64,000 nucleotides of DNA from an uncultured Eubacteriaceae bacterium (GTDB taxonomy: Bacteria > Bacillota > Clostridia > Lachnospirales > CAG-274). The notes under the pieces were generated by a model. That model was not told where the DNA came from and searched no databases. It saw only the letters and a list, made by a program, of their open reading frames with translations. This document shows positions 49,150 to 52,788 of this stretch, in pieces; the first letter of the stretch is position 1; each line of letters begins with the position of its first letter. The DNA lies in NCBI GenBank assembly GCA_947086655.1, contig CAMTZM010000001.1, positions 62,001 to 126,000 of the forward strand, read 5' to 3'. The translations under genes were made by a program, and so were the position numbers.

Positions 49150-50736
49150 ATGGAGAGAGAACTGATTATTTGTGCGGTTGTTTTAATTTTATGTATTTTG
49201 TCAAGTAAAACTTCAGGTAAAATTGGTATACCAGCGCTTCTTATTTTTATATTTATTGGAATGATGTTTGGTTCAGATGGAATAATGAAAATACCTTTTG
49301 ATAATTATTTGCTTGCTGAAAATGTGTGTACTATTGCTTTAGTAATAATTATGTTTTATGGAGGATTTTCAACTAAGTGGACTGCTGCAAAACCAGTGGC
49401 AGTGAGAGCCTGTATTATATCATCGGCTGGAGTTGTTATTACTGCTTTATTAACAGGATTGTTCAGCTTTTTTGTATTAAGGATTGATTTAAAAGAAAGT
49501 ATTCTTTTAGGTGCTGTTATAAGTTCAACTGACGCTGCGTCTGTATTTTCAATACTGCGTTCAAAAAATTTGAATTTAAAGGGTGGTCTTGCTCCTCTTT
49601 TGGAAGTTGAGAGCGGAAGCAACGACCCATTTTCATATATGCTTACATTTGCGGCGCTTGTAATACTTAAAGGACAGGAAGTTGGTTTTGTTGCCGGAAT
49701 GATAGTTTTACAGCTTATTTTTGGAGTTTTATTCGGAGTTCTTTTTGGTTATTTTTCACCTATTATTATGAAAAAGCTTAATTTATTATCTGGAAGTTTT
49801 GATTCAATATTTTTATCGGCAATTGTTCTTTTATCATATGCCATACCGTCTGTTTTAGGAGGAAACGGCTATTTAAGCGTTTATATTGCTGGTATTATTA
49901 TGGGAAATTCAAAAATAAAAAATACTCCGTCTCTTGTGCATTTTTTTAACGGAATTACAGGAATGGCACAAATTATTGTATTTTCTATTTTAGGTCTTTT
50001 ATCATTTCCATCAAGGTTGCCGTCTATACTTGTTACAGCCTTGCTTGTATTTTTATTTCTTACGTTTGTGGCACGTCCAGTGGCTGTTTTTATACTTATG
50101 ATTAAGGGTTATGATATAAAAGAAAAAATGTTTGTATCGTGGGCAGGTCTTAGAGGTGCTTCGTCTATTGTATTTGCTATAATGGCGACGGTAAGCGATG
50201 CCCCTGTTGAAATAGACATATTTCATATTATATTTTGTGTTTCATTGTTGTCAGTTTCAGTACAAGGCACTTTGCTGCCATTTGTAGCAAAAAAGCTTAA
50301 TCTTATTGATAATAACTATAATGTATTAAAAACATTTAATGACTACGCTGAAGAAAAAGATGTTGCAATAATGAAAGTACATATTGCAGAGGGGCATGGT
50401 TGGGAAAATAAAAAAATAAGCGAAGTAAATATGCCAGACGATTCTCTTGCACTTATGATTAAAAGAGGTGACGGAACAATTATACCAAAAGGCAATACTA
50501 TAATTATGGCTGGAGATGACGTTATTTTAAATGTGCCTATATACAGCGTTGAAAATGATATAACATTGAAAGAGATAACAGTACATAAAGGGCATGAATG
50601 GGAAAATAAGAAAATAGGAGAACTTAAACTTTCAGATAATACTCTTATAACACTTATTAAAAGAAAAAATGAGGCAATTATACCGGATGGAAATACTGTA
50701 ATAAAAAAGGATGACATTATGGTAATATATCAATAA
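49150..50736 (+). CDS. Potassium/proton antiporter (CPA1, NhaP2-like) with two TrkA-C domains
   Basis: 528 residues. About 12 helices with FIGMMFGSDGI, the ion-binding region SSTDAASVFSIL and VESGSNDPFSYML. After about residue 400 there are two tandem TrkA-C-like repeats (GHGWENKKISEV and GHEWENKKIGEL, each followed by an I-P-x-G-N-T motif). The repeats suggest nucleotide control, as in CvrA/NhaP2. GGAGG ribosome site. Confidence 0.87.
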   Translation: MERELIICAVVLILCILSSKTSGKIGIPALLIFIFIGMMFGSDGIMKIPFDNYLLAENVCTIALVIIMFYGGFSTKWTAAKPVAVRACIISSAGVVITALLTGLFSFFVLRIDLKESILLGAVISSTDAASVFSILRSKNLNLKGGLAPLLEVESGSNDPFSYMLTFAALVILKGQEVGFVAGMIVLQLIFGVLFGVLFGYFSPIIMKKLNLLSGSFDSIFLSAIVLLSYAIPSVLGGNGYLSVYIAGIIMGNSKIKNTPSLVHFFNGITGMAQIIVFSILGLLSFPSRLPSILVTALLVFLFLTFVARPVAVFILMIKGYDIKEKMFVSWAGLRGASSIVFAIMATVSDAPVEIDIFHIIFCVSLLSVSVQGTLLPFVAKKLNLIDNNYNVLKTFNDYAEEKDVAIMKVHIAEGHGWENKKISEVNMPDDSLALMIKRGDGTIIPKGNTIIMAGDDVILNVPIYSVENDITLKEITVHKGHEWENKKIGELKLSDNTLITLIKRKNEAIIPDGNTVIKKDDIMVIYQ

Positions 50737-50760
50737 TTAATTTTATTTTTTAAAGAATTT

Positions 50761-50790
50761 TTGACAAATATTTTAAGGAGAGGATATAAT
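50761..50790 (+). promoter_or_regulatory. Consensus promoter reading into the hairpin element
   Basis: TTGACA at 50761-50766 and TATAAT at 50785-50790, 18-bp spacing. It lies after the antiporter stop, and the -10 box sits in the loop of the first palindromic repeat. A transcript would start near 50797 and run through the hairpins to the terminator at about 51045. Confidence 0.55.
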
Positions 50791-51045
50791 ACCTCTCCTC
50801 AGACTGTCGAAAAAATCAAAATTTTTTTAAAACTTTAATTTATGGAAAAAGCGTCGCAGACTTTAAAGTGCAAAACGGGCTTTGCCCGTTTGAGGAAAAG
50901 AGACGTTTCAAGGGCTTTCAAGCCTTGTACGAAGAAACGTCTCTTTATTCTTCTGCTTAAAATCATCGAAAACTTTTTTTTCGATGACAGCGTTGTCGAC
51001 TTTGTCGACACGCTGAGGAGAGGATATAATACCTCTCCTCTTTTT
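50776..51045 (+). ncRNA. Composite hairpin element, candidate structured RNA or MITE
   Basis: A 25-bp palindromic sequence (AGGAGAGGATATAATACCTC plus TCCTC) occurs at 50776-50800 and again at 51016-51040. In between come hairpins AAACGGGC/GCCCGTTT, AAGAGACGTTT/AAACGTCTCTT, TCATCGAAAA/TTTTCGATGA and CAGCG-TGTCGAC/GTCGACA-CGCTG. The ends are imperfect inverted repeats: CTCAGACTGTCGA versus CTCAGCGTGTCGA. It is more GC-rich than the surroundings. Promoter at one end and terminator at the other suggest an RNA; terminal repeats suggest a miniature mobile element. No family named. Confidence 0.6.
51015..51045 (+). terminator. Terminator closing the hairpin element
   Basis: GAGGAGAGG / CCTCTCCTC stem with an 8-nt loop (ATATAATA) followed by TTTTT. 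The identical stem 240 bp upstream lacks the T-run. Confidence 0.8.
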
Positions 51046-51051
51046 AATGTA

Positions 51052-51759
51052 TCATATTTTTCTTTGTATTTTATGTTTTTGAGGTTTAATTGTTATATCA
51101 GTTACAGATATTTCTTGTCTTTGATTAATTATAAATTTTACAGCTTTTGCTATTTCACATGGAGTTAAAAATGTATCGTTTTCTTCAGATTGACAAAAGT
51201 CAGCATTTCTATAAAAATTACTTTTTGTTATATCAGGATGAATAGATGTAATTTTTACTCCATATTTTCTGACCTCATCAAAGAGACTTTCTGAAAAGCT
51301 TGTTAAGGCAGCTTTAGTAGCTCCATATGCACAACCGTAAGTATTGCTTTTTTTTGCTGTAACAGATGATATATTTATTATATGTCCGTTTGTGTTTTTT
51401 AGGCAGCGAAGCAAAAGTTGTGTAAGTATCATAGGAATTTCTATATTTATTACAGTCATTTCATGTATTTTTTTTGTATTTAGATGTTCATGCAGTCCAA
51501 AATATCCAACACCGGCACAGTTGACAAGGTAATTTATATTATTTTTATTTTCTTTTTTTATTTCATTTATTTTTTGGCATAATATGTTTATGTTTGTTAA
51601 ATCAATTTTTATAGGTTTAAATAAGTCCGAGGTTATTTCATTTGTAAAATTTCTGCCCAGTCCATATACTTTTATATTTTCTTTTAAAAACATACGGCAT
51701 ATTTCATATCCTATTCCCGAAGATGCTCCGGTTACTATTGCTGTTTTTATTTCACTCAT
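51052..51759 (-). CDS. Short-chain dehydrogenase/reductase
   Basis: 235-residue SDR with nucleotide-binding TGASSGIGYE at about residue 10, NCAGVG, catalytic Ser in ISSVTAKKS and Tyr/Lys in YGATKAAL. The C-terminal DITIKPQ is also typical. Last gene of a three-gene operon, 3 bp after the SPL-like gene. Substrate unknown. Confidence 0.88.
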   Translation of the reverse strand: MSEIKTAIVTGASSGIGYEICRMFLKENIKVYGLGRNFTNEITSDLFKPIKIDLTNINILCQKINEIKKENKNNINYLVNCAGVGYFGLHEHLNTKKIHEMTVINIEIPMILTQLLLRCLKNTNGHIINISSVTAKKSNTYGCAYGATKAALTSFSESLFDEVRKYGVKITSIHPDITKSNFYRNADFCQSEENDTFLTPCEIAKAVKFIINQRQEISVTDITIKPQKHKIQRKI

Positions 51760-51762
51760 TAT

Positions 51763-52788
51763 TTATACATTCTCTTTCCATACAAATATTTTATCTTTAT
51801 CTATATATTTTATTATTTTATAATATACAAATGACGTAAGTTCTTTTTCAATTTCAGTATTGTAATGATATATTCCGTTTGTTGTCTCAAATGGATAATT
51901 TATTATTAAACTATCTGTTCTGTTACGACGTATTTTTTTTAAATATTCAGCCGACATTCTAAATGCTCCTATGCTTATATCGTTTATTTTATCAGCAGAA
52001 ATATGTTTAAAAATATTTTCAATTAATTCTGTATAATATGTTTTGTATTTATCTGTATAAATTAAAGGGTCAAGACAAATACGTACTTTCCAGCCTGATT
52101 TTATAGCTTTTTTAATATTTTCAATACGTTTGTCTATACAAGGGGTTTTATGTTCATAAGCTTGTCTTAAATTATCCGGAGAAAGAGTCCATGCTAAAAT
52201 TACGTTAGTACATGGAGTTATGTCTGAAATTAAATTAAAGTTTGTGCTTTTTGTTCTTATTTCAATTTTAAGATTTTTTTCTTCTTTTGCAAATTCAATC
52301 CATTCACGGCATGAGCCAAACAAATTTTCTATTGCAAGTAAGTCGGTATCAAAAGATACGCAAAGATATATACTATTTTTTTTAAGCATTTTAAGTATAT
52401 TTTCTTTATAGTCATAAAAATTTGTAAATAACACTATATTTGAAGATGGATACATTCCCTGTAAAAAACAATATTCACAATCATAAATGCAATTTATAGC
52501 AGTTGTTGTGTAATAAAAATCGCTGTTTCCAAAATCTTGACATACAGGCGCTCCCTTATATATTAAACAGCCTTTGTTTTTAGCTATAATTAAATTTTGA
52601 CTGTTTTTTTGTATAAAGCTGTTTTGACGTTTTCTGCAAAAAATATCTTTATAATGTTCTATTAGTATAATACGGCTGTTTTTAAATTTTTTTATTATTT
52701 GCTGAGCCTTTTTTGTGTCATATATTTCTTTTTCACAATAAATATGAGAAAAGGGAGGGTTATATAATTTTTTTTGATATATACTCAA
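51763..52788 (-). CDS. SPL-family radical SAM protein (spore photoproduct lyase-like)
   Basis: 341 residues. The radical SAM cluster motif CIYDCEYC (C-x3-C-x2-C) followed by FLQGMYP is the spore photoproduct lyase signature; a further Cys lies in GSCREW, at the expected H-donor region. It would repair the UV spore lesion in DNA, although many SPL-family members are untested. Starts at TTG 52788, overlapping the upstream gene by 29 bp, with a GGGAAG ribosome site. Operon with a nucleoside phosphorylase-like gene and an SDR. Confidence 0.82.
   Translation of the reverse strand: MSIYQKKLYNPPFSHIYCEKEIYDTKKAQQIIKKFKNSRIILIEHYKDIFCRKRQNSFIQKNSQNLIIAKNKGCLIYKGAPVCQDFGNSDFYYTTTAINCIYDCEYCFLQGMYPSSNIVLFTNFYDYKENILKMLKKNSIYLCVSFDTDLLAIENLFGSCREWIEFAKEEKNLKIEIRTKSTNFNLISDITPCTNVILAWTLSPDNLRQAYEHKTPCIDKRIENIKKAIKSGWKVRICLDPLIYTDKYKTYYTELIENIFKHISADKINDISIGAFRMSAEYLKKIRRNRTDSLIINYPFETTNGIYHYNTEIEKELTSFVYYKIIKYIDKDKIFVWKENV

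Follow-up and report, generated by a model that had tools for sequence, protein, structure and literature searches.

A putative IS1182-type miniature element that duplicates terminator hairpins and carries a structured, probably RNA-forming core

A dispersed 218-bp repeat unit was found inserted in the terminator of an antiporter gene lying upstream of it in the window, that is, the whole 64,000-nt stretch of DNA analysed here. Judged from sequence comparison, the unit is very probably a non-autonomous element (a MITE) of IS1182 type, which targets palindromes, usually terminator hairpins, and which holds a separate structured interior, most likely an RNA. The copies, their ends, the hairpin-long target duplications centred on the dyad of the hairpin and the like behaviour of full IS1182 elements were all directly observed. 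The core is undescribed in Rfam, and together with the dyad-centred duplication of a whole hairpin it makes this MITE unusual. Features of the locus are collected in Table 1.

Table 1. Features of the insertion locus, in window positions
Feature	Position	Strand	Evidence or remark
Antiporter gene (Na+/H+ or K+/H+ type, TrkA_C domain; 528 aa)	49150-50736	+	Pfam PF00999 146 bits, PF02080 73 bits
TTGACA-N18-TATAAT promoter-like match	50761-50790	+	12/12; part of insertion site
Left target-duplication copy: terminator hairpin minus T tail	50776-50800	+	22 bp at 50777-50798; at most 25 bp
Mobile element, 218 bp	50799-51016	+	1 of 14 near-identical copies; copy alignment
Left end TCAGACTGTCGAAAAAATC	50799-50817	+	Resembles IS1182-family IS ends (TTCAGACTGTCAAAAAAGTC)
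Conserved core block AGCGTCGCAGACTTTAAWSYGCA-H1-GAGGAAAA	50847-50900	+	Model R1, 69.8 bits at window site
H1: AAACGGGC-TTT-GCCCGTTT	50873-50891	+	7/8 pairs changed on both sides, alignment A1
H2: long stem, conserved internal-loop motif	50897-50946	+	GTTTCAAG ... GAAAC here; then linker ATTCTTCTG
H3: TCATCGAAAA/TTTTCGATGA hairpin	50963-50987	+	At this place in relatives, stem changed
H4: right-end hairpin CAGCGTTGTCGACTTTGTCGACACGCTG	50988-51015	+	Fold; comparison with relatives
Right end, read inward TCAGCGTGTCGACAAAGTC	50998-51016	-	Imperfect inverted repeat of left end
Right target-duplication copy with original T tail; restored antiporter terminator	51016-51045	+	Palindrome and T run
Short-chain dehydrogenase gene, 235 aa; downstream, convergent	51052-51759	-	Pfam PF00106

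A whole-genome search with positions 50740-51080 as query produced 13 further copies of the element in the same genome (14 in total, 96-100% identical), with every match stopping at the inner edges of the palindromes. All 14 copies are intergenic, with 12 of them found at gene 3' ends, and the flanks differ among all of them. The probability that a terminator was merely duplicated by chance, with no mobile element involved, is virtually nil, as the 13 further copies, each with different flanks, rule this out. A conserved reading frame is absent from the unit, which has no transposase gene. The fold of the interior is far more stable than that of shuffled sequence, with z = -6.2 for the + strand and -6.1 for the - strand.

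An earlier note, made from the letters of this DNA, had pictured a MITE-like insertion in the antiporter terminator, a view which the dispersed copies and the duplicated hairpin support. The features it listed were recovered as well, namely two identical 25-bp palindromes (50776-50800 and 51016-51040, the latter being the T-tailed copy that leads out), four hairpins between them (H1 to H4), a promoter-like sequence leading in, outer ends forming imperfect inverted repeats (76% complementary across 42 nt), and a base composition unlike that of the flanks (G+C of 37.6% vs 30.4% for the window). The note had posed a structured RNA and a dispersed miniature element as alternatives; covariation and dispersed copies speak for both at once. 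It had also suggested searching the genome for dispersed copies and looking for covariation, and both searches were positive rather than leaving a single copy without covariation. The claim of a promoter and a terminator belonging to the element itself found no support, because the flanks of other copies differ: the palindromes and TTGACA are parts of one insertion site and not of the element. The TATAAT of the promoter-like match falls inside the terminator loop. An element-borne promoter as a common feature was rejected, the TTGACA-TATAAT pair being confined to the target in the window; among relatives, only some g2/g3 elements have a match of the form TTGACA-17-TAAAGA or TATGAT, the end of which lies 16 nt upstream of the core. 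The match in the window, if active, would start an RNA near the first base of the element. Further downstream, beyond the dehydrogenase gene, the - strand at 51766-52788 encodes a protein with a weak Pfam match to spore photoproduct lyase (SPL, 50.5 bits).

Comparison of the copies indicates that the two identical palindromes are the terminator hairpin of the antiporter gene, duplicated upon insertion; the left duplication measures 22 bp, or as much as 25 bp if the bases that its ends share with those of the element are counted. Most copies in the same genome are flanked on both sides by the same hairpin, which is specific to the site, mainly resembles an intrinsic terminator and is typically 22-33 bp long (exact duplications of 22, 24, 27, 33, 33, 23 and 22 bp, and two further ones of 26 and 25 bp with three mismatches). 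The median offset between the centre of the duplication and the centre of the hairpin was 0.25 bp in the window's own genome, 1.0 bp in relatives and 0 bp for the IS1182 elements of one related genome, G304. When these three groups were pooled (53 sites), 33 had a stable hairpin whose centre lay within 1 bp of that of the duplication, vs 19 of 3000 random window sites; relatives entered this set only with a clear direct repeat, and the count measures palindromy and centring rather than the frequency of duplication. As regards frequency, about two thirds of 20 sampled copies in genome G064 displayed a clear hairpin duplication of up to 44 bp, and under half of a mixed sample of relatives had a recognisable one, many being diverged or rearranged.

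Exceptions took several forms. At L016, the duplication was 15 bp long and covered a weak hairpin in part; at L010 and L013, it was 5 bp long and lay within short AT palindromes. The copy at L019 adjoins a hairpin that is present once, and the copy at L022 has been interrupted by a second element and retains a single hairpin. At two other loci, the duplication was 10 bp long and amounted to most of a hairpin's loop (L210), or was 11 bp long and not palindromic (L222). MITE orientation relative to the T run showed no preference, either in the same genome (3 vs 7) or in relatives (15 vs 14). Unlike the MITEs, the IS1182 elements of G304 (L076-L089) had the T run on one side at eight and on the other side at none of nine measured sites.

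The left end of the element, TCAGACTGTCGAAAAA, is common to full IS1182-family insertion sequences of relatives (TCAGACTGTCGAAAAARTC here vs TTCAGACTGTCAAAAAAGTC in IS1182), and the right end, TCAGCGTGTCGA, agrees with IS1182 ends only in part and less well than the left one does; the element of genome G188 (L222) has IS1182-like ends on both sides. In G304 we found eleven IS1182-family elements of 1488 bp, all inside duplicated hairpins (L079 and L081, both among the loci retrieved, have flanks that are identical), with ends consisting of TTCAGACTGTCAAAAAAGTC and its near-exact inverse. The transposases of G304 and of another relative, G011, match the family model NF033551 at 375 and 417 bits, respectively, against a cut-off of 270. 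In G011, one terminator holds, in succession, a hairpin, an IS1182 element, a second hairpin, a relative of the 218-bp element and a third hairpin (L075 1358-3186). This tandem also illustrates that a duplicated hairpin can become a target again. A distant IS1182 element of 1608 bp (L197), found in G363, a genome from a different family of the order, is flanked by a perfect 30-bp hairpin duplication; its transposase is 49% identical to that of G011.

The shared ends, the shared hairpin-long duplication and the G011 tandem argue that the 218-bp element is a MITE of IS1182 type. It is short, dispersed and without transposase, possesses terminal repeats (the right one in part), and uses the same type of target with the same duplication; the one expected companion that was missing is a full IS1182 in the same genome. 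The likeness to IS1182-family elements (NF033551; IS1182, IS1272) lies in the left end and in palindromes or terminators as targets, and to the family members examined in relatives it extends to the dyad-centred hairpin duplication. The element differs from a full IS1182 in having no transposase gene, in its size (218 bp vs ~1.5 kb), in its asymmetric right end and in the additional structured core.

IS1182 elements were found in the relatives G011, G304, G194 and G112, and no IS1182 transposase was detected in the window's own genome. Across 392 genomes, IS1182 and the core displayed no clear co-occurrence (8 shared genomes, ~6 expected), and the presence of IS1182 was dropped as a predictor of the element. 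Because of these two results, the helper enzyme would have to come and go, or another would have to serve. That some other hairpin-targeting enzyme mobilises the element, its likeness to IS1182 ends being due to convergence or shared descent, is quite improbable in our estimate: the copy-rich genomes G188, G064 and G206, like the window's own genome (80, 42, 40 and 16 copies of the core, respectively), gave no detectable IS1182 transposase, but the ends, the dyad-centred duplication and even the G011 terminator are held in common with IS1182, draft assemblies lose insertion sequences, and insertion sequences come and go where MITEs persist. It is common for the full insertion sequence to be absent from the present genome of its MITE, and such an absence does not decide origin. 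A search for an autonomous partner in G188 from paired inverted ends led to one 1.1-kb candidate, which was discarded as it encloses an ordinary host gene and no transposase.

With an IS1182-family origin of the ends as the preferred reading, we propose that an IS1182-family DDE transposase acting in trans would recognise TCAGACTGTCGAAAAA and TCAGCGTGTCGA. The ends would then be joined to the two target strands at positions symmetric about the hairpin dyad, usually at the feet of the stem, and gap repair after joining would leave the element with a complete hairpin to either side. The hairpin copy downstream retains the T tail, and the host terminator should in consequence survive. With that terminator intact, insertion would cost the host gene little, and the dyad-centred duplication suggests a choice of target that spares the terminator.

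This scheme departs from what was published for IS1272, a member of the IS1182 family, and for TnSha1 in staphylococci, which insert in terminator hairpins without primary sequence preference (PMC4923244, PMC5678879). In the IS1272 models, joinings occur at the foot of the stem-loop, the loop is deleted or replaced and no target duplication arises (PMC5678879, PMC4923244). Family and terminator-hairpin targets are thus the same, but there the stem-loop is deleted or replaced, and here the whole hairpin is duplicated rather than removed. It is highly improbable that the present element moves by such an inverted-repeat-replacing transposition, with the target stem-loop removed and the element in its place. 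Kinship with IS1272, which also targets terminator hairpins (PMC4923244, PMC5678879), and two loci without one or both hairpin copies (L019 and L022) could be cited for it; most insertions, however, are flanked by two intact hairpin copies, which contradicts replacement at the duplicated sites, though replacement may yet account for the few sites that lack a duplication. Apart from the IS1272 papers, literature searches turned up no IS1182 that duplicates hairpins and no MITE that targets terminators. Contrary to the published IS1272 pattern, then, other IS1182 members and MITEs with like ends duplicate the whole hairpin. This constrains the mechanism, since a duplication of just this kind would result from gap repair after symmetric strand joining at a cruciform's feet.

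The inner part of the element (~50847-50956) is conserved far beyond its outer parts, in the order AGCGTCGCAGACTTTAATCCGCA, H1, GAGGAAAA, H2, ATTCTTCTG and H3. The internal loop of H2 in other families consists of GTTTCAAG and GATGGAAC facing each other. In a MAFFT alignment (A1), 95% of cells in H1 were paired, vs 27-47% when the pairs were slid. A model of H1 and H2 together (R2) had 44 matches among the loci examined, and in the resulting alignment (A5) 24 of the 28 pairs were changed on both sides, 94% of cells were paired (35-55% when slid), and covariation reached 0.440 vs 0.165 in shuffled data. No shuffle out of 500 attained the observed score, and sliding the pairs destroyed the signal. 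Alignment A5 was fitted to the model, leans to structure and includes a few weak wrong-strand matches; the unfitted MAFFT alignments A1 and A4 agree with it. Covariation of this kind points to selection on the fold of the core. Wobbles read on the + strand of the element comprised 48 G-U cells (a conserved U-G in H2 included) vs 8 A-C cells, and this excess of G-U points to folding of the + strand, as RNA or as single-stranded DNA. We take the interior to be, most likely, a separate structured module forming an RNA read from left to right. The copy in the window has AAAGTGCA where its sister copies have AATCCGCA, which breaks two pairs of a short stem; for this reason it may be slightly degenerate.

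In Rfam 15, no match above the gathering score was obtained for the window or nine related loci, except for an unrelated tRNA, and weak matches, e.g. RF02857 (26.6 bits, gathering score 197), were treated as chance. The weak full-length match to the Leptospira sRNA 30_255 (50799-50988, 26.6 bits vs 197), which starts exactly at the first base of the element, is likewise put down to chance.

With model R1, 79 of the 392 genomes searched in the order, from several families, proved to contain the core; exact counts in 15 genomes gave 12 carriers with 8 to 80 copies each. Under strict filters, a search with R2 over 391 genomes of the class placed the core in three genomes only, all of the same order. 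An exact core match is present in the record of an uncultured Eubacteriaceae MAG (L073). Known plasmid and phage collections yielded no match to the element. One IMG/VR contig classed as viral (L200 782-803) contains the core and, after it, a right end reading GCGTGTCGACTTTTTCGACACGC. The core was absent from all IS1182 loci examined, where the one match belonged to a neighbouring tandem element, and derivation of the core from full insertion sequences was rejected on these grounds. Since the full IS1182 elements examined are without the core, the MITE is not a simple deletion of such an insertion sequence; instead, it joins IS1182-type ends to an unrelated structured module.

Our guess is that the core serves the element, by way of stability or help in mobilisation, and not the host, since neither its sites nor its orientation nor the genes beside it are conserved. 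An RNA gene or 3'-end element working for the host, in mRNA stability or regulation, and spread by IS1182-type ends seems rather unlikely to us: strong covariation, conserved unpaired motifs and the position of 12 of the 14 own-genome copies at gene 3' ends would suit it, as against neighbours that are not conserved, both sense and antisense orientations, and copy numbers ranging from 0 to 80 between related genomes. It is possible, albeit doubtful, that the interior represents a new class of mobile structured RNA, i.e. order-wide RNA genes with a defined activity which borrow IS1182 ends and transposase. If this were true, the activity could be, for example, recruiting or regulating the transposase, or acting on host transcripts. 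A covarying, RNA-like core present in tens of copies per genome and in several families of one order makes it a testable question why a MITE needs an RNA.

Two other kinds of repeats invite comparison. The bcr1 repeat of the Bacillus cereus group is MITE-like and mobile, reportedly with a conserved RNA fold; it differs from the present element in host group and in target duplication. REPs resemble the element as dispersed palindromic repeats near gene 3' ends, and the core of the element holds GCGTCGC. CGTC-tagged REPs are 20-40 bp long, with the tag directly at an 8-9-bp stem whose first pairs are A-T, and a CCA-like tail (PMC3733652). Compared with that description, membership of the element among CGTC-tagged REPs was rejected: its motif lies at least 14 nt from a stem and is missing in family f17, and the element has DDE-type ends and a target duplication.

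The second element noted above at L022 (3200-3334; G000:C32:17648-17782) is 135 bp long, reads GGGAGTGTCC...GGACACTCCC and is inserted in a copy of the 218-bp element, where 9 bp, GCGTTGTCG, are apparently duplicated. It has five more matches in the same genome, at 88-96% identity.
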